A stretch of 49,868 nt of DNA, taken from the NCBI GenBank assembly GCA_902568425.1, contig CACFQM010000005.1:1-49868 (forward strand), read 5' to 3'. Source of the stretch: an uncultured Pelagibacteraceae bacterium. GTDB lineage: Bacteria; Pseudomonadota; Alphaproteobacteria; Pelagibacterales; Pelagibacteraceae. This document shows positions 1,708 to 49,868 of this stretch, one piece after another (positions within the stretch are counted from its first letter, which is position 1; each line of letters starts with the position of its first letter). The notes beneath the pieces were generated by a model that was given only the letters and a program-made list of their open reading frames with translations, was not told the origin of the DNA and ran no database searches. Both the position numbers and the translations under genes were made by a program.

Positions 1708-2739
1708 TTAATATGTGCTCTCTTCTAATTTTTTTGACAACTCCACAATATTATCTGGTGGCCAGTTGGGTATTTCCATGCCTAGGTATAAAGACATAGA
1801 ACTTAGCACTTCTTTAATTTCATTTAGAGACTTTCTTCCAAAGTTAGGAGTTCTCAACATTTCTGACTCAGATTTTTGTACAAGATCACCAATATAAATA
1901 ATATTATCGTTCTTTAAGCAATTCATTGATCGTACTGAGAGTTCTAACTCCTCTACTCTTTTAAGTAAGTTCTTATTAAATTCAGGTTCAGTTGTTTTAG
2001 TTTGTGCAGGAATTTCTTTTGGATCTTCAAAATTTACAAACATTGAAAGCTGATCTTGAAATATTCTAGCGGCAAATGCCACAGCATCTTCTGCTGGAAT
2101 TGTTCCATTTGTTTCAACTTGCATTGTTAATTTATCATAATCTAAAGCATCACCTTCTCTGGTAGTATCAATTGAATAAGAAACTTTTTTTACAGGACTA
2201 AATAATGAGTCAATTGCAATCAAACCAAGGGGAGTGTCTTCTGTTTTATTTTTTTGAGCTAAAACATAGCCTCTTCCGTTATTAACAACTAATTCCATAT
2301 GGAACTTAGTTTTTTCATCAAGATTACATATTGTCTGATCGAGGTTTAAGATTTCAACACCATTTACCGGTGTTATGTCTTTTGCTTTAACTTCTTTGGG
2401 TCCAGTTGCATCTAAAATTAATTTTTTTGATCCTGAAGTATTTAATTTTACCGCTAAATTCTTTACATTTAGCACGATGTCTGTAACATCCTCTCTAACA
2501 CCTTTTATTGATGAAAATTCATGCAGCACTCCATCAATTTGAATCGCGGTCACTGCTGCACCTTGGATAGATGATAAAAGAATTCTTCTAAGCGCATTTC
2601 CTATTGTTTGACCAAAACCTTTTTCTAAAGGTTCTGCGATTACTTTCGCCATGGATTTATCATCGTTGCTTGTTATCGCAAGTTTAGAAGGCTTAATTAA
2701 TGTTTTCCAATTTTTGTCTATTATATTAATATTCTCCAT
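1708..2739 (-). CDS. rpoA: DNA-directed RNA polymerase subunit alpha
   Basis: The alpha subunit forms the dimer that nucleates RNA polymerase assembly. The N-terminal domain (about residues 15-240) carries the assembly signature [22 protein letters not shown]. The C-terminal domain (about 260-335) has [20 protein letters not shown] and the [14 protein letters not shown] helix-hairpin-helix used for UP-element and activator contacts. The 343-residue length is normal for Alphaproteobacteria. The start overlaps the rpsK stop by one base and the stop abuts rplQ. Confidence 0.98.
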
Positions 2740-3185
2740 TATACTCTCCTTTTTTTTGGTGGCCGTGCTCCGTTATGAGGCATAGGTGTTGTGTCTTTAA
2801 TTGAAATAATTTTAAAACCTCTTGATTGTAAAGCTCTTAAAGCAGTCTCTCTGCCTGAACCAGGACCTTTTACCTGAACTGATAAGGTTCTTAAACCTTG
2901 TTCATAAGCTTTACCTCCAGCGTCGTCAGCAGCAACTTGCGCAGCATATGGTGTTGATTTTCTTGATCCCTTGAAACCTTTTGTGCCCGCAGAAGACCAA
3001 GCAACAACGTTTCCTTGTTCATCGGCAATAGATATTATCGTGTTATTAAATGTGGAATTTACAAATGCTATCCCTGAAGAAATATTTTTTTTGTTTTTTG
3101 ACTTTTTCTTTACTACTTTTTTTACTACTTTTTCTTCAGTACTTTTTTTTTCTGTTTCTAAATTATTTTTATTTTTGATATTCAT
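2739..3185 (-). CDS. rpsK: 30S ribosomal protein S11
   Basis: Platform protein of the small subunit. Conserved blocks include [60 protein letters not shown] and the C-terminal [18 protein letters not shown]. It is 148 residues, about 20 longer than usual, because of a Lys/Glu-rich N-terminal segment of roughly 37 residues before SSGIAF. This segment has no alternative Met near the core, so the listed start is kept. Two bases separate it from rpsM. Confidence 0.97.
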
Positions 3186-3187
3186 TT

Positions 3188-3571
3188 TTATTTTTTCATA
3201 GGAGTTAATTTCTTACCTGCGATTGCAATAGCTTTACCTTTTCTCGTTCTGGCATTTGAATGAGTTCTTTGGCCTCTAACAGGTAATTTTTTTTTATGTC
3301 TAGAACCTCTGTAGCAGGCTAAATCAACTAATCTTTTTATGTTCATTGATTTCTCTCTTCTCAGATCACCTTCGACTTTATAATTAGCATCAATGTATTC
3401 TCGAATTTTTAAAACTTCTTCTTCTGAAAGTTTATTAACTCTTTTATTCAAAGGAATATTTAGTTTTTCACAGATAATCTTAGAATTATTATCTCCTATG
3501 CCGTGGATATAAGTTAATGCTGTATGAACAACTTTGTTAATAGGTATGTTAATGCCTGCTATTCGAGCCAT
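3188..3571 (-). CDS. rpsM: 30S ribosomal protein S13
   Basis: Head protein of the 30S subunit that contacts P-site tRNA and L5. It begins [13 protein letters not shown], carries the helix-two-turn-helix ALTYIHGIG, and ends with the basic [22 protein letters not shown] tail typical of the family. It is 127 residues. It is the first gene after adk and has its own likely promoter overlapping the adk stop, so rpsM-rpsK-rpoA-rplQ can be transcribed separately from the spc genes. Confidence 0.97.
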
Positions 3572-6826: not shown

Positions 6827-7365
6827 TTATTTTTTCTTACCCTCTTTCCTTATAACAAATTGGTCTTTTTCTTTTATCCCTTTTGCTTTGTAAGGTTCTA
6901 CAGGTTTCAAAGATTTGATATCTGCAGATACTTTTGAAACTAATTCTTTGTCTGATCCACTTATATTTAATTTAGTTTGTTTTTCAATTTTTACATTTAT
7001 ACCTTTTGGTATCGTATAAGTTACTTCATGGCTAAAACCTAACTGAAATACTAATTTATCACCTTTTGTACTTGCTCTAAAACCAACACCACTTAGCTCT
7101 AAATTTTTTCATGACCTTTTGTAACACCTAAAACAGCATTGTTTATTAAGCTTCTATATGTGCCCCACATTAAAGAGCTTTTCTTATCTTTGTTTTTGGG
7201 TGATATTTCAAATTCATTTTTTTCATTAATTTTTGAAGAAAACATCTTCTCATTAAAAATTAATTTTTGAGTTCCTTTAGGTCCAGAAACTAAAAGTGAA
7301 CCACTATCAACTTTTACAGTAGAGTCCTTCGGTAATAAAATAGGTTTTTTTCCAAGTTTTGACAT
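6827..7365 (-). CDS. rplF: 50S ribosomal protein L6, apparent one-base frameshift
   Basis: L6 lies near the sarcin-ricin loop and the GTPase centre. It starts MSKLGKKPILLPKDSTVKV at 7365. The first frame reads to VTKGHEKI and stops at TAG (7099-7101). The remaining domain continues in another frame as LELSGVGFRAS ... EGKKK, with a stop at 6827-6829. Adding one A to the six-A run (T6 at 7104-7109 on the + strand) restores GHEKNLELSGVGFRAS and a normal 179-residue protein. Both halves are well conserved, so the break is either a sequence error or a very recent mutation. An upstream Met at 7422 would overlap rpsH by 56 bases and is rejected. Confidence 0.9.
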
Positions 7366-17494: not shown

Positions 17495-20400
17495 TTATTC
17501 GGTCTTAATTTCTGTTTTTTTAGTTTTGTCTATCTCTTGTTTGGCGAGTTCTTGTTTTTTCAATTCTGCAATTCTTACTTTGTCTTCCTCTTTTGCTTGT
17601 TTGTCTAAAATATTTTTTGTTAGACCTGTACCAGCAGGAATAAGTCTACCAACAATCACGTTTTCTTTGAGACCTTCTAATGTGTCTATTTTTCCTTTTA
17701 TTGCAGAGTCGGTTAATACTCTTGTGGTTTCTTGAAAAGAAGCTGCAGATATAAACGAGTTTGTTTGAAGTGATGCTTTAGTTATTCCTAGTAATACTCT
17801 TTCTCCAGATGCAGGTTTTTTGTTTTGTTTTTTTAGCTCCTCATTTGCATTGTTTAAATCAATTCTATCAACAAGTTCACCATTTAAGTAATCAGAGTCC
17901 CCTGAGTCTTTAATTTCAACTTTTTTAAGCATCTGTCTTACTATTGTTTCAATGTGTTTATCATTTATCACAACTCCTTGCATTCTGTAAACTTCTTGTA
18001 CTTCTGTTACAAAATATTCTGTTAAAGCTTCCACCCCTAAAATTCTTAAAATATCATGAGGCGCGGGTGCTCCATCTAATAAATATTCACCTTTTTTTAT
18101 TTTTTCGCCCTGATTAAAATTTGTATGTTTTCCTTTTGGTATTAAATAATTAGACGACTCCCCTTTGTCTGTGACGATAGAAATTTTTTGTTTCCCTCTA
18201 ACCTCTTTACCAAATTGAATTGTTCCATCGCTTTCTGCTATTATGGCGCTATCCTTTGGTCTTCTTGCTTCAAATAGTTCCGCAACTCTTGGAAGGCCGC
18301 CTGTTATATCTTTTGTTTTGGAAGTTTCTTTAGGTAATCTTGCTAAAACATCACCGGCTGATATTTTTTGTCCATCTTGTACAGAAAGAATTGAATCTGG
18401 TACTAAATAATATCTCGCTTCATTACCATCGGCTTTTTTTATAACTTCTCCTTCGGAATTTCTTAATGTTATTCTTGGTTTTAAATCAGTATTTTTAGAT
18501 TGCGATCTCCAATCTACAACTGATTTTGAAGATATACCTGTGGCATCATCAAGTGTTTCAGCAAGTGAAACGCCATCAACCAAATCCATGTAGTTAACAA
18601 TACCATTTGTTTCTGCTATTACAGGTAAAGTGTATGGGTCCCATTCACATATTTTTTTTCCTTTTTGTACTTTTTCACCGTTTTTAAAAAAAAGTTTAGA
18701 ACCATAGGGAACTTTATAAAGGGCAAGTTGTCTTCCGTTATCATCTTCTAAAGAAAGTTGAGTATTTCTACCCATAACAATTATATTGTTTTTTGAATCT
18801 TCGAGTAAATTTTTATTACTTACCTTTAAAATACCTGAGTTAACAGATACAACTGAGGAGTCCTCTTTAATTTGCGCTGTACCACCTACGTGAAATGTTC
18901 TCATTGTCAACTGAGTTCCTGGCTCACCTATTGATTGGGCGGCTATCATTCCTATAGCTTCTCCAACACTTACTAATTTTCCTCTCGATAAATCTCTACC
19001 ATAAGACATCGCGCAAACACCTTTTTTTGATCCACAAGTGATTACTGAAAATACATTAATAGATTTAACCCCAGCTGAGTCTATTTTTTCACAAATGTTT
19101 TCATCGATCATTTGTTTTTTCTTAATAATTAATTCTCCGGTTAATGGATTTTTTACATCCTCAGCTGCCACTCTACCTAAAACTCTTTCAGATAAACTCA
19201 CTAATACGTTACCACCTTCAATAATTTCAGATAGTTTTATTGATGATCTGTTATTACAATCACATTCTTTTTTAGTTACTTGAATATCTTGGGCCACATC
19301 ACAAAGTCTTCTTGTTAAATAACCTGAATTAGCAGTCTTTAATGCTGTGTCAGCTAAACCTTTTCTAGCTCCATGGGTTGAATTAAAGTATTCTAATACT
19401 GTTAATCCCTCTTTAAAGTTTGAAATTATTGGTGTTTCAATAATTTCACCAGATGGTTTGGCTATAAGTCCTCTCATGCCAGCTAATTGTTTCATCTGTG
19501 CTGGTGATCCTCGAGCACCAGAATCAGCCATCATAAAGACTGAATTGGTTTCAATTCTACCATCTGGATAAATTTTTTCAGCTGAAGAAATTTCTTTCAT
19601 CATTTCATTTGCAACTGAGTCTGTGCATTTAGACCAAATATCTACAACTTTATTATATTTCTCTCCTCTAGTTATAAGCCCATCCTGATATTGTTTTTCA
19701 TAATCTTCTATTTGTTTTTTAGTTTGACTAACCAATTTTTCTTTAGTTTTTGGAATAATCAAATCATTTTTTCCAAAAGAAATCCCTGCTTTAAAAGCAT
19801 GTTTAAATCCTAAATCTTTTATTCGATCACAAAAAATCACAGTTTCTTTTTGACCACAATATCTGTACACAGTGTCAATTACCTCAGAAACTGCTTTTTT
19901 CGTTAATAATTTATTAACTAGTTCAAATTTAATTCTATGATTTTTAGGTAAAGTTTTAGACAATAGAAAACGTCCAGCAGTACTTGTATATTTCTCTGAA
20001 ATTTTGTTTCCGTCTTTATCTACTGTGTTAAATATCGAAACTATCTTAGAGTGAACACTAATATCTTTTCTTTCAATGGCGTTCTCAATCTCATCTACAT
20101 CAGAGAAGATACCAACTGGTTTTGCATTTGAGTCCTCTTTATGTTGAGACAAATAATATATCCCAAGCACAATATCTTGGCTCGGTACAATTATTGGCTT
20201 ACCGTTCGATGGACTTAAAATGTTGTTTGTTGACATCATAAGAACACGTGCTTCGATTTGTGCTTCTAAACTCAATGGTACATGTACAGCCATTTGGTCT
20301 CCATCAAAATCTGCATTGAAAGCGGCACAGACTAAAGGATGTAATTCAATTGCATTTCCCTCAATTAATTTTGCCTCAAAAGCTTGAACACCCAATCTAT

Positions 20401-21694
20401 GCAATGTTGGTGCCCTATTTAATATAACCGGGTGCTCTCTTATTATATGTTCAAGAGCATCCCAGACTTCGCTCTTTTGTTTTTCAACCATTCTTTTTGC
20501 TTGTTTAATGGTTGTTGCAAATCCTAATTTATCTAATCTTGCATATAAAAATGGTTTAAATAGTTCCAAGGCCATCTTTTTAGGTAATCCACATTGGTGT
20601 AATTTAAGTTCAGGCCCAACAACAATTACTGATCTTCCAGAATAATCTACTCGTTTCCCTAAAAGATTTTGTCTAAATCTACCTTGTTTTCCTTTCAACA
20701 TTTCTGCTAATTATTTTAAAGGTCTTTTGCCAGTTCCTGTAATAACTCTTCCTCTTCTTCCGTTATCAAATAAGGCATCAACTGACTCTTGTAACATTCT
20801 TTTCTCATTTCTGACTATTATGTCCGGAGCTTTCAAATCCAAAAGTCTTTTAAGTCTATTGTTTCTATTAATTACTCTTCTATACAAATCATTTAAATCT
20901 GATGTAGCAAATCTACCTCCATCTAATGGAACTAACGGTCGAAGTTCAGGTGGTATCACTGGAACGGTGGTTAAAATCATCCACTCTGGTTTATTTCCTG
21001 AGTCTATAAATGACTCGATGAGTTTTAATCTTTTTAAAGTTCTTTCCTCAGTAACTTTTGACTTGATTGTCTTTAAAGATTCTCTGAGTTTTTTTCTCTC
21101 AGACGCTAGATCAATACTTAATAATATTTCTCTTACAGCTTCAGCGCCAATACCAGCTGTGAATCCATCTTCTCCGTACTTTTCTTGAGCTTTTATATAT
21201 TCGTCCTCTGTAAGAAGTTGGCCTTTTTTTAATTCAGTCAAGCCAGGTTCGATAACTATAAAGCTCTCAAAATATAAGATCTTTTCTACCTCTTTGAGCT
21301 TCATATCTATAGCAAGAGAAATTCTACTTGGTAATGACTTTAAAAACCAAATGTGTGCTACAGGACATGCGAGATCTATGTGTCCCATTCTTTCACGTCT
21401 AACGTTAGATTTTGTTACTTCTACTCCACATTTTTCACAAATTATGCCTCTAAACTTCATTCTTTTGTATTTTCCGCAAAGACATTCGTAGTCTTTAATT
21501 GGGCCAAAAATTCTTGCACAAAATAATCCGTCTTTTTCTGGTTTGAAAGTTCTATAATTTATAGTTTCTGGTTTTTTTATTTCACCAAAAGACCATGATT
21601 TTATTTTTTCTGGGCTAGCTAAAGTAATTTTAATATGATTAAAATTCTTTTCTGCAACGCTCTTTCTTGTATCTTTTGATAAGTCTTTTCTCAT
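17495..21694 (-). CDS. rpoC: RNA polymerase subunit beta', interrupted by an in-frame TAA
   Basis: Catalytic subunit of RNA polymerase. From ATG 21694 to the stop at 17495 there are 1400 codons, and codon 328 is TAA (20711-20713). Before it are the zinc-binding cysteines (71, 73, 86, 89) and [12 protein letters not shown] of the rudder. After it, in the same frame, come LAE and then [24 protein letters not shown] (switch 2). The Mg-binding NADFDGD is at 460-466, and [17 protein letters not shown] of the trigger-loop region follows. The family has Ser at the TAA position, so a single TCA to TAA change explains it. A Met three codons later (20701) could start the 1068-residue remainder. Sequence error is the simplest reading; a split beta' or read-through is the alternative. 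It lies nine bases after rpoB. Confidence 0.95.
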
Positions 21695-21703
21695 TTTAAA
21701 TTT

Positions 21704-24700
21704 TTAATTCAATTCTATGTTTAGTCCTAAAGCTCTTATTTCTTTAATTAAAACGTTGAAGGACTCTGGTACACCTGACTCAAAATTATCATCACCCTTA
21801 ACTATTGTTTCATAAACTTTGGTTCTTCCTGCAACGTCATCAGATTTAACAGTTAAAATTTCTTGTAAAGTATACGATGCGCCATAAGCTTCTAATGCCC
21901 AAACTTCCATTTCACCAAATCTTTGTCCACCTAATTGAGCCCTACCACCTAATGGTTGTTGAGTTACTAAACTATAAGGACCTGTTGATCTAGCATGAAT
22001 TTTGTCTTCAACCAAATGGTGAAGTTTAAGCATATATATTATGCCTACAGTTATTGGTCTATCAAATTTTGTTCCTGTTCTACCATCCCATAGATTTGTT
22101 TGACCTGCATTTGGCAACTTAGCTAAGTCTAACATTTTAGTAATATCCTCTGTTGTTGCTCCATCAAAAACTGGTGTTGCTATAGGAACTCCATTTGACA
22201 AATTTGAACATAATTCTTTAAATTGTCTTTCATCCAAATTATTTACAATATCACTTAACCTTTTTTCTCCGTATATTTGGCCTAAAGTACTCTTCAAATC
22301 TTTATTATCATTTGTTTTTTTAAAGTTGTTGTATAAATTTTTTACTTTTTCACCGAGTTCAGAGCATGACCACCCAAGGTGAGTTTCTAATATTTGCCCA
22401 ACGTTCATTCGGCTTGGTACCCCTAGTGGATTTAAAACTATATCAACTGGCTTACCACTTTCCATGTAAGGCATGTCTTCGACTGGTACTATTTTGCTTA
22501 TAACACCTTTATTTCCATGTCTTCCAGCCATTTTATCTCCTGGCATTAATCTTCTTTTTATAGCAACAAAAACTTTAACTACTTTCATAACTGTTGGTAG
22601 AAGATCGTCTCCTTGTCTAATTTTAAGAACTTTATCTTCAAATCTTAGTTTTATATCTTCTTGCGCTTTATCAAATTGTTCTTTTAATTGCGATACTTTG
22701 CTATTTATACTTTCGTTTTTAAACTTGATTTTCCAATAATCTTTTATATCAAGAGAACTTAAAATGTCGCTGGTTAACGTATCTCCAGATTTCAAAGATT
22801 TAAAACTTTTTTCAATTGGTTCTTTCTTTAAGATTTCATTCAATCTTAATTTAATATTTCTTACTAAAATCTCTTCCTCAACTTGCTTATCTTCCTGAAC
22901 TGCTTCAATTTCATATCTTTCTATTGCTATTGCTCTTTCATCCTTTTCAATACCGTGCCTGTTAAAAACTCTAACATCAACTACAACACCAGAACTTCCT
23001 GGAGGTAATTTTAACGATGTGTCTCTTACATCAGTAGCTTTTTCACCAAATATTGATCTCAATAATTTTTCCTCAGGACTAGAGGCCGTTTCTCCTTTAG
23101 GAGTTACTTTCCCAACAAGAATATCTCCTTGTTTAACTTCGGCACCAACATATACAATGCCTGACTCATCAAGATTTTTTAAGCTTTCCTCACTTACATT
23201 AGGAATATCTCTAGTTATTTCCTCTGTACCCAATTTTGTATCGCGCGCCATTAATTCATATTCCTCAATATGAATAGAGGTAAATACATCATCTGTTACA
23301 CATCTCTCAGATATAAGAATAGAATCCTCAAAATTATAACCCTGCCACGGCATAAATGCTACTGTAACGTTTTTACCCAAGGCTAACTCACCTAACTTAG
23401 TTGCTGGGCCATCAGCAATTATATCTCCTTTTTTAATCACATCTCCCCATTTCACTAAAGGCTTTTGGTTTATACAGGTGTTCTGATTTGATCTTTGAAA
23501 TTTCATTAAACTATAGATATCTACACCAGATTTAGATAAATCTTTTTCTTCTGTTGCTTTGACTACAATTCTTTTTCCATCTATTTTGTCTACTACACCA
23601 TTACGCTTAGCAACTATAGTTACACCTGAATCTAAAGCCACATCTCCCTCGATACCTGTGCCAACTAGTGGCGACTCTGGTTTTAACAACGGCACAGCCT
23701 GTCTCATCATATTTGACCCCATTAACGCTCTGTTTGCATCATCATTCTCCAAGAAAGGTATCAAAGATGCCGCAACTGAAACTAATTGTTTTGGAGATAC
23801 GTCGATATAGTCAATATTTTCTCTTCTTGATAAAACAAAATTTAATCCTTTTCTGCAAGACACTAATTCTTCAATAAAACTTCCATCCGAACTAACAGGA
23901 GAATTTGCTTGGGCAATTGTAAATTTTTCTTCCTCAATTGCTGACAAATATTCAATTTTATCTAAAATCTTTCCACTTTGTACTTTCTTGTATGGGCTTT
24001 CTATAAAACCATATTTATTTACTTTCGAATAAGTTGCCAAACTATTTATCAATCCAATATTCGGACCCTCTGGCGTTTCTATTGGACAAATTCTTCCGTA
24101 ATGAGTTGGGTGAACATCTCTTACTTCAAAACCCGCTCTTTCTCTAGTTAATCCACCTGGACCTAGTGCGGAGACTCTTCTTTTGTGTGTTATTTCTGAT
24201 AAAGGATTAGTTTGATCCATAAACTGAGATAGCTGTGATGTTGCAAAAAAATCTTTAAAAGAGGTGCTAATAGGTTTTGCATTAATTAGTCCTTGTGGCA
24301 GTGCAGACTCAATTTCTAAAAAAGTTGACATTTTTTCTCTTATAGTTCGTTCCATTCTTAACAAACCAATTCTAAATTGATTTTCGACTAATTCACCCAC
24401 AGATCTTACTCTTCTGTTACCTAAGTGATCTATATCATCAACTTCACCTTTTCCATCTCTTAAATCCAGCATGAATTGTATTATAGAAATAATATCTTTT
24501 TTGGTAAGTATTCTTAAATTATCGTCTTCTTTAAGATCAAGTCTCGCGTTCAGTTTTACTCTTCCAACATCCGATAAATCATATCTTTCGTTACTAAAAT
24601 ATAAATTTTTAAAAACTTCTTCCGCTACTTCGGGGGTTGGAGGTTCTCCTGGTCTTAAAACTTTATAGATATCGTTTAATGCAGATTGTTTATCAAAATT

Positions 24701-25801
24701 TTTATCAATTTTAATTGTTTCAAATATATATGGACCTTTTAAAATTGAGTCTACATTTGCAAGTTTTAGTTTCGAAATTTTTGAAGACACAATTTTTTCT
24801 AAAGCTTCTTTTGTGACATTAAATCCAGAATTAATTATTAATTTACCTTCGGAATCTTTTAAATCTTCATTAGAATATTTTCCAATTATTTCGTCCTCAG
24901 ATACAATAATTTTTTCTAAATTTTTTTCTTTTAACTTTTGGGCCAAAATAAAGTTAAGTTTTTCACCTTTTTTTAATATTTTCTTATTATTTTTTTTGTC
25001 GATTAAATCAAATAATAATTTTATTGGTCTTTTATACTTTTCTGGTTTAAATTCAGTAGACCAAGTCTTAGTTGTTGTATCAAATTGATAAGAGTCGTAG
25101 GTATAAAACTGTTCTAAAATATTTTGCCTACTCATTCCCATTGCATACAAAAATGTTGTTATCGGTAATTTCTTTTTTCTATCTATTCTGAAATGTAAAA
25201 TATCTTTTGGATCAAATTCAAAATCTAACCAAGAGCCTCGTCCTGGAATTATCCTGCAGTTGAACAACAATTTTCCGCTACTATGAGTTTTGCCTTTATC
25301 ATGATCAAAAAATACACCAGGACTTCTGTGCATTTGGTTTACAACTACTCTTTCTACTCCATTAACTACAAATGTTCCACTTGAAGTCATTAAAGGTAAA
25401 TCACCCATAAAAACTTCTTGCTCTTTTGCTGATAATATTTGTTTAGTATTATTTTCTTGATCAATTTCATAAACTACTAAACGTAAATTTGCTTTTAATG
25501 CAGATGAATAGGTAAGACTTCGCTGTCTACATTCATTTACATCAAATTTAGGTTTGTCTAAGCTACAAGAAATAAATTCAAGAGAAGATTTTTCAGAACT
25601 ATCGTTAATAGGGAAAATGCTTTTAAAAACCTTTGTTAATCCTTTGTCTAAAGTTGACCCTTTTACTATATCTGACTTAGACTCGATGAATTGTTTGTAG
25701 GAATTTTTTTGAACTTCAATTAGATTGGGTATTGATAGGCTTTCTTTTAATTTTCCAAAATTTTTTCTAATACTTTTTTTTTGAGTAAAAGTTAATTCCA
25801 T
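21704..25801 (-). CDS. rpoB: DNA-directed RNA polymerase subunit beta
   Basis: Second-largest RNA polymerase subunit, 1365 residues and uninterrupted. The rifampicin-binding cluster reads [31 protein letters not shown], with the residues usually mutated in resistance all in the sensitive state. Further landmarks are [25 protein letters not shown], the [13 protein letters not shown] block and the C-terminal [24 protein letters not shown] clamp anchor. The 38-base gap after rplL carries a weak GTACT/AGTAC inverted repeat. Confidence 0.98.
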
Positions 25802-30245: not shown

Positions 30246-30998
30246 GTGAAAAAAAGTACTTTTTACATCGTAGGAAGACATGCTGTTACTGAGGCACTAA
30301 AAAACCCTAATAGACAGGTTGTTCGAGTGTTTTTAACAGAGGACTCAAAGAAAAAAATACATAAAGAAAATCAGCATATCAATCTCCTAAAGAACGTTAG
30401 TGTTTTTTATAAGTCTAAAAAGGAACTAGATAAATATTGTGCTAGAGAAGATATATTACACCAAGGTTTGGTTGCTGAGATAGAGCATTTGGAGGAAATA
30501 AGTTTGAAAAGTTATATCAACGAAAATTCTGATAGAAATGATATAAATTTAGTTGCTTTAGATGAAGTTACAGATCCTAGAAATATAGGTTCAATTATTA
30601 GAAGTGCTACATCCTTTAATATAGATGGAATAATAGTAAAAGAAAGGTCATATCCTAGTGAAAGTAAATTATTATATAAAAGTGCAAGTGGATGTGCTGA
30701 ATTAATTAAAATATTTCTAGTATCAAATATAAACACAACACTCAAGTATTTAAAGTCTAAAAATTTCTGGGTAAGTGGGTTTGACACCCAAAGTAAAAAA
30801 GATTTTACAAATCATGATTGGAAGGGAAATAATGTTCTATTGTTTGGGTCCGAAGGCCATGGTTTAAGTCATCAAATAAAAAAAAATTCAGATTTTTTAT
30901 TTCGTATAAGCATAAATAAAAATGTAGAAAGTCTGAATATTTCTAATAGTGCATCTGTAGTTTTTCATCATTTAAATTTTATTAAAGAAAAATCTTGA
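30246..30998 (+). CDS. rlmB: 23S rRNA 2'-O-methyltransferase, RlmB/TrmH family (SPOUT)
   Basis: SPOUT-class enzyme; RlmB methylates Gm2251 in 23S rRNA with S-adenosylmethionine. It begins with GTG (30246). An N-terminal substrate-binding domain (YIVGRHAVTEALKNP, residues 7-21) precedes the knotted methyltransferase domain: ALDEVTDPRNIGSIIRSATSFNIDGIIV (about 103-130), LFGSEGHGLS (about 199-208) and SLNISNSASVVFHH (about 228-241). These are the three TrmH-family motifs. It is 250 residues. The exact target site is inferred from the family. Confidence 0.85.
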   Translation: MKKSTFYIVGRHAVTEALKNPNRQVVRVFLTEDSKKKIHKENQHINLLKNVSVFYKSKKELDKYCAREDILHQGLVAEIEHLEEISLKSYINENSDRNDINLVALDEVTDPRNIGSIIRSATSFNIDGIIVKERSYPSESKLLYKSASGCAELIKIFLVSNINTTLKYLKSKNFWVSGFDTQSKKDFTNHDWKGNNVLLFGSEGHGLSHQIKKNSDFLFRISINKNVESLNISNSASVVFHHLNFIKEKS

Positions 30999-48779: not shown

Positions 48780-49868
48780 TAGAAAGATACTCTAGGGAAG
48801 AAGTTAAAAAAATCTGGCAAGATCATAATAGATATAAAATTTGGTTAGACATTGAACTTGCAGCTGCTTTAGCAATGGAAAAATATAAACTAATACCAAA
48901 GGGTGTTTATAAAAAGGTTAAATCTAAATCAAAAATTGATGTAAAAAAGATTTTAAAAATTGAAGGTAAGGTAAGACATGATGTGATTGCTTTTCTCAGT
49001 TCCATAATGGAAAAATCTGGGAACGAGGGAAGATTTTTACATAAGGGAATGACGTCATCAGATGTGTTAGATACTTGTTTTAATTTACAGCTTAAACAAT
49101 CTGGAGAAATACTTCTTAAAGATATTGATAATTTATTAAGCGCAATTAAAAAACAATCAATAAAACACAAATTTACTCTTTGTATTGGTAGAAGCCACGG
49201 AATACATGCAGAACCAACAACATTTGGGCTCAAGCTTCTTACTTATTATGCAGAATTCTCAAGAAATAAAAAAAGACTTGAAAAAGCTATTGAAGATATT
49301 TCAACTTGCGCAATTTCTGGGGCTGTTGGAACGTTTGCAAATATAGATCCTAGAATTGAAAAGTTTGTTGCGAACAAATTAAAATTAAAAATTGAACCAA
49401 TTTCAACACAAATTATTCCAAGAGACAGGCATGCTCATTTTTTTTCAGTGTTGGGTATAATTGCGAGTTCTATTGAAAGATTTTCTGTCGAGATACGAAA
49501 TTTACAAAGAACAGAAGTTGCGGAAGTTTATGAGTTTTTTAAAAAAAAACAAATGGGTTCATCTGCAATGCCTCATAAAAAAAATCCAGTCCTAAGTGAG
49601 AATTTAACCGGGTTAGCAAGATTAGTAAGGTCAATGGTAATACCGGCAATGGAAAACGTTGCGTTGTGGCATGAAAGAGATATTTCACACTCAAGTGTTG
49701 AGAGAAATATTGGTCCAGATGCAACTGTAACTCTAGATTTTGCTTTAAACAGAATGAGTGAGGTAGTTAATTCTATGAAAATAAATAAGAGTAATATGAA
49801 AAAAAATTTAGATTTAACAAAAGGATTATTTTTCTCACAAAGAGTAATGCTTTTTCTTACAGAAAAGG
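48776..49868 (+). CDS. purB: Adenylosuccinate lyase, 3' end outside window
   Basis: Catalyses two fumarate-releasing steps in purine synthesis. The frame opens with ATG 48776, overlapping the map stop, and stays open to the window end (364 codons). MIERYSREEVKKIW is the PurB N-terminus. HDVIAF, KGMTSSDVLDTC and the fumarase-superfamily signature GSSAMPHKKNP (about residues 262-272) are present. The family is about 430 residues, so roughly 65 are missing. No stop or frameshift was found where I checked. Confidence 0.96.
   Translation, partial: MIERYSREEVKKIWQDHNRYKIWLDIELAAALAMEKYKLIPKGVYKKVKSKSKIDVKKILKIEGKVRHDVIAFLSSIMEKSGNEGRFLHKGMTSSDVLDTCFNLQLKQSGEILLKDIDNLLSAIKKQSIKHKFTLCIGRSHGIHAEPTTFGLKLLTYYAEFSRNKKRLEKAIEDISTCAISGAVGTFANIDPRIEKFVANKLKLKIEPISTQIIPRDRHAHFFSVLGIIASSIERFSVEIRNLQRTEVAEVYEFFKKKQMGSSAMPHKKNPVLSENLTGLARLVRSMVIPAMENVALWHERDISHSSVERNIGPDATVTLDFALNRMSEVVNSMKINKSNMKKNLDLTKGLFFSQRVMLFLTEK

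Follow-up and report, generated by a model that had tools for sequence, protein, structure and literature searches.

In cyanobacteria and jumbo phages, the splits of the RNA polymerase beta' subunit described in PMC7598289 come after the catalytic double-psi barrel domain. The rpoC frame considered here encodes beta' on the minus strand at 17495-21694 of a window of 49,868 bases, which is the whole stretch of DNA analysed and all of contig C5; it spans 1,400 codons, as established from the open reading frame (ORF) list, frame translation and profile search, and it is broken at codon 328. On this frame, the cyanobacterial rpoC1 profile (TIGR02387) ends at residue 568 and the rpoC2 profile (TIGR02388) starts at residue 593, which places the cyanobacterial junction about 240 residues downstream of the stop and bears out the suggestion of the initial annotation that the two sites differ. 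The stop at 328 precedes NADFDGD, and a junction of the cyanobacterial type, lying after the catalytic domain, is not seen. To our knowledge, a split just before switch 2 is used by no cellular RNA polymerase. If beta' were made here as two chains divided at that point (about 37 and 118 kDa by the estimate of the initial annotation), with termination at the TAA and restart at the ATG at 20701, it would represent a new way of building an essential enzyme.

The interruption is real in the given letters, and the gene is otherwise continuous. Minus-strand letters round codon 328 read AGA CCT TTA AAA TAA TTA GCA GAA ATG TTG AAA GGA. The TAA occupies 20711-20713 (minus strand), in frame at a position where sequence reading and comparison with relatives indicate a conserved serine, and frame translation shows it to be the sole in-frame TAA ahead of the terminal one; the initial annotation had therefore located and described codon 328 correctly. 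The mechanical ORF list gives an N-terminal piece of 327 amino acids plus stop (20711-21694, minus strand) and a C-terminal piece of 1,068 amino acids plus stop (17495-20701, minus strand), the latter opening at the next ATG past the TAA (20701-20699), nine bases on, after TTA GCA GAA. The presence of this in-frame ATG favours a division of the subunit into two chains, as does the occurrence of beta' splits in other lineages, at least those described in PMC7598289. In a profile search the two halves adjoin on a single profile (TIGR02386, positions 2-307 and then 312-1144), and the rpoC alignments of relatives continue across the stop, the nearest at 98-99% identity. The unbroken rpoB (21704-25801, minus strand; ORF list and genus search), which served as control gene, precedes rpoC in minus-strand order on the contig.

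The distribution of the stop among relatives argues against such a division. With the read-through rpoC frame as query, 26 of the 31 genus genomes searched gave matches and the other five none; besides the window's own locus, 23 loci covered the site, and two further matches were too short. The equivalent of codon 328 is TCN (serine) in all 23, and with a stop in none of them the cyanobacterial pattern of a split common to relatives is absent. Serine is also found in the sequence of the solved structure 7ye1_D and in 76 of 80 named bacterial loci, the other four not matching the motif used, in agreement with the earlier claim that serine is the normal residue at this codon. The nearest rpoC by DNA (locus L005 of genome G007, 95.2% nucleotide identity) carries TCA, one base from TAA, in line with the proposed single-base change from TCA to TAA. 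No second genome of the species was seen among the 30 genus-mates. At the family level, 327 of 397 genomes matched a 1,326-residue query from which both ends had been omitted, and among the best 150 of these 327 matches an internal stop occurred in one, that of the window's own genome. Two rpoC matches apiece were recorded in 15 of the 150 listed family genomes, and these may be contig ends or frameshifts. A degenerate DNA pattern for a stop (or tryptophan) at exactly codon 328 found the stop in one of 397 family genomes, again the window's own, with no match for the reversed pattern used as control. The serine form of the pattern recovers 23/23 genus loci, 8/8 family loci and only 50/80 of the named distant loci; with none of the 31 genus and family loci missed, the search for the stop is sensitive at that range. 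The control gene rpoB showed no internal stop in the 26 matching genus genomes, two of the matches being partial. A distant search of a plasmid collection returned 44 records at only 60-80% identity, none of them close to the species. Among the genomes compared, the rpoC TAA is thus private to one assembly. A serine codon in relatives had been named beforehand as the observation that would make the stop an error: it was found, and the change is private, while the error itself needs the reads.

Apart from the stop, the window copy of rpoC is an ordinary member of its family. Measured against five relatives of equal length, dN/dS was 0.014-0.038 over codons 1-327 and 0.016-0.031 over the remainder, and the ten pairs among the relatives themselves gave 0.017-0.044 before the stop site and 0.021-0.034 after it; four of the ten values of the window copy fall slightly below the relatives' range and none above. 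Purifying selection acts in the ordinary way before as well as after the stop, and the gene is neither decaying nor adapting. We aligned 30 sequences; at the 977 columns that are otherwise invariant, the stop at S328 is the sole private change of the window copy, the other rows having 0 to 10. No private change that might compensate for a split was found elsewhere in beta' at these columns, which speaks against two functional chains. Signals at the junction point the same way. The bases ahead of the ATG at 20701 are the ordinary LAE coding sequence common to relatives, judged by eye they include no clear ribosome-binding site or other new start signal, and a local scan found no promoter-like or terminator-like site at the junction.

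The intact frame past the stop and its ordinary purifying selection could also be taken as a sign that the stop is real and that readthrough, or a suppressor tRNA, yields full-length beta'. Several observations weigh against this. The RNA fold round the stop is unremarkable (z -0.65), the terminal codon of rpoC is itself TAA, and none of the 20 tRNAs named by ARAGORN reads UAA, in an assembly that is 66% complete and in which one of 21 Rfam tRNA matches is unnamed. We consider readthrough or suppression very unlikely. General recoding of UAA was considered separately and rejected on two of these grounds, the TAA at the end of rpoC and the lack of a UAA-reading tRNA among those named.

The contig contains a second break. 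We screened all ORFs of the window against the syntenic stretches of eight relatives. Matches below 60% identity were left out of the count, as were stops in the first 5 or last 8 residues; a stop between query positions 7 and 21 was taken to reflect a different choice of start, and matches of short ORFs that overlapped tRNA genes or ran antisense to a longer ORF were regarded as spurious. Besides rpoC, the screen revealed one further clear break in the window, a missing A in rplF (ribosomal protein L6; 6827-7365, minus strand). By syntenic comparison and profile search, rplF is frameshifted, its pieces matching TIGR03654 at positions 1-84 and 84-175, and the alignment shows a run of A6 (7104-7109, minus strand) where six syntenic relatives have A7. 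The gene is uninterrupted in the 19 genus relatives that matched (30 searched, 11 without a match), and its frameshift probably reflects another sequence error. Unrelated disruptions of two essential genes within a single contig are hard to reconcile with a living cell, and sequence errors account for them easily.

Division of beta' into two chains leaves the rplF break unexplained. Together with the private stop, the lack of a clear start signal by eye and of promoter-like or terminator-like sites in the local scan, the unremarkable fold, the lack of compensating private changes at otherwise invariant columns and a known split that falls after the catalytic domain, at about residues 568-593 here going by the cases in PMC7598289, this led us to set aside the split with restart at 20701 that the initial annotation had put forward as one of its two readings. 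A functional split is exceedingly improbable, and is the least likely of the readings considered. The rplF break is likewise left unaccounted for if the rpoC stop were a fresh lethal change. A single sequenced cell can carry such a change, and the stop could then be a real but non-functional mutation, either in a doomed cell or in one whose second, intact rpoC is missing from the assembly; with 66% completeness, a second copy is possible. Only one rpoC match is present in the assembly, however, and the copy lacks signs of decay, so that a real mutation appears unlikely.

We also compared the frequency of breaks in this assembly (756,496 bases in 53 contigs) with that in relatives. When 40 kb of each of five other contigs of the assembly were screened under the same criteria, about 50,000 codons yielded no clear break. 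The count is therefore two breaks in about 65,000 codons here versus one clear break and three possible ones in about 180,000 codons of relatives; these figures do not show the assembly to be worse than its relatives and place it within the range of its kind. The clear break among the relatives affects a 311-amino-acid ORF of G026, in which a run of A has two extra A, a homopolymer indel comparable to that in rplF; this ORF (L169, at about bases 2616-3550 of G026:C1) is intact in G000 and G027. The window ORF at 30246-30998 (plus strand, 250 amino acids, GTG start), which lies between tRNA genes, has its G027 match in two frames at 70-76% identity, which could mean that the sequence is broken in G027 or has diverged rapidly. 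Other possible breaks in relatives concern the ORF at 48907-49233 in G014 and a 116-amino-acid ORF of contig C4 in G007, with a stop at 47.

A genus-mate genome is isolate AG-430-L09 (CACHXE010000009.1), and AG- isolate names presumably denote single-cell genomes of the Bigelow centre, although one AG- record (L051) is titled MAG. We infer that the source assembly is likewise an amplified single-cell genome. For the single-cell workflow of that centre, the published averages, taken over three benchmark cultures, are 1.5 misassemblies, 3.0 indels and 5.0 mismatches per 100 kb, as given in PMC6122165 and PMC11247762. Applied to the window, these figures predict about 2.5 mismatches and about 1.5 indels, and for an assembly of this size about 38 mismatches and about 23 indels. 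Between 5.6 and 5.9% of single-base changes create a stop (5.6% in the ORFs of the window), so that about two false stops would be expected in the assembly and 1.75 in 150 copies of the rpoC stretch, compared with the one observed. Since the benchmark culture with a small genome had the fewest errors, according to PMC5519541, these predictions may overshoot here and are likely upper figures.

Three observations, namely a stop that is private among the genomes compared, a gene with no other peculiarity and an unrelated homopolymer indel in another essential gene of the contig, argue that the rpoC TAA is very probably a base error fixed in amplification or assembly rather than a trait of rpoC in the organism itself. 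An error in the source DNA or its assembly was the other reading in the initial annotation, and it is the one that the private stop and the rplF break support better. The serine codon (TCA in the nearest relative) would have one base read as A instead of C on the coding strand. The likeliest origin of such a base would be miscopying or template damage when the genome of a single cell was amplified, or else thin read depth, followed by its fixation in the assembly consensus. A C-to-A change fits oxidative template damage, although a single case proves nothing. Under an error of this kind, we expect the reads at this site to contradict the A or to support it thinly. A limited literature search found nothing relevant on premature stops in rpoC of SAR11 or on amplification errors of this base type. 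As an error, the rpoC stop serves as a caution: if the published rate is representative, every amplified single-cell assembly may contain about two false stops, some of which will hit essential genes and mimic split or recoded genes. It follows that private stop codons should be checked in relatives and in reads before other readings are entertained.

Three known systems come closest to what is seen here. The cyanobacterial rpoC1/rpoC2 pair and the split beta' of jumbo phages resemble this locus in that the information for beta' lies in two frames; they differ in that, in the accounts consulted, the split is lineage-wide and falls at about 568-593 in the numbering of this frame, whereas here it falls at 328 in one assembly. 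The intact rpoC of the genus is another counterpart: in L005 of G007 the protein is 99% identical and the DNA 95.2%, the gene adjoins rpoB as in the window, and TCA stands where the window has TAA. Errors of single-cell assemblies likewise take the form of isolated mismatches or indels within genes that are sound elsewhere, and their rate, as published for the benchmark cultures, fits what is seen in the window.
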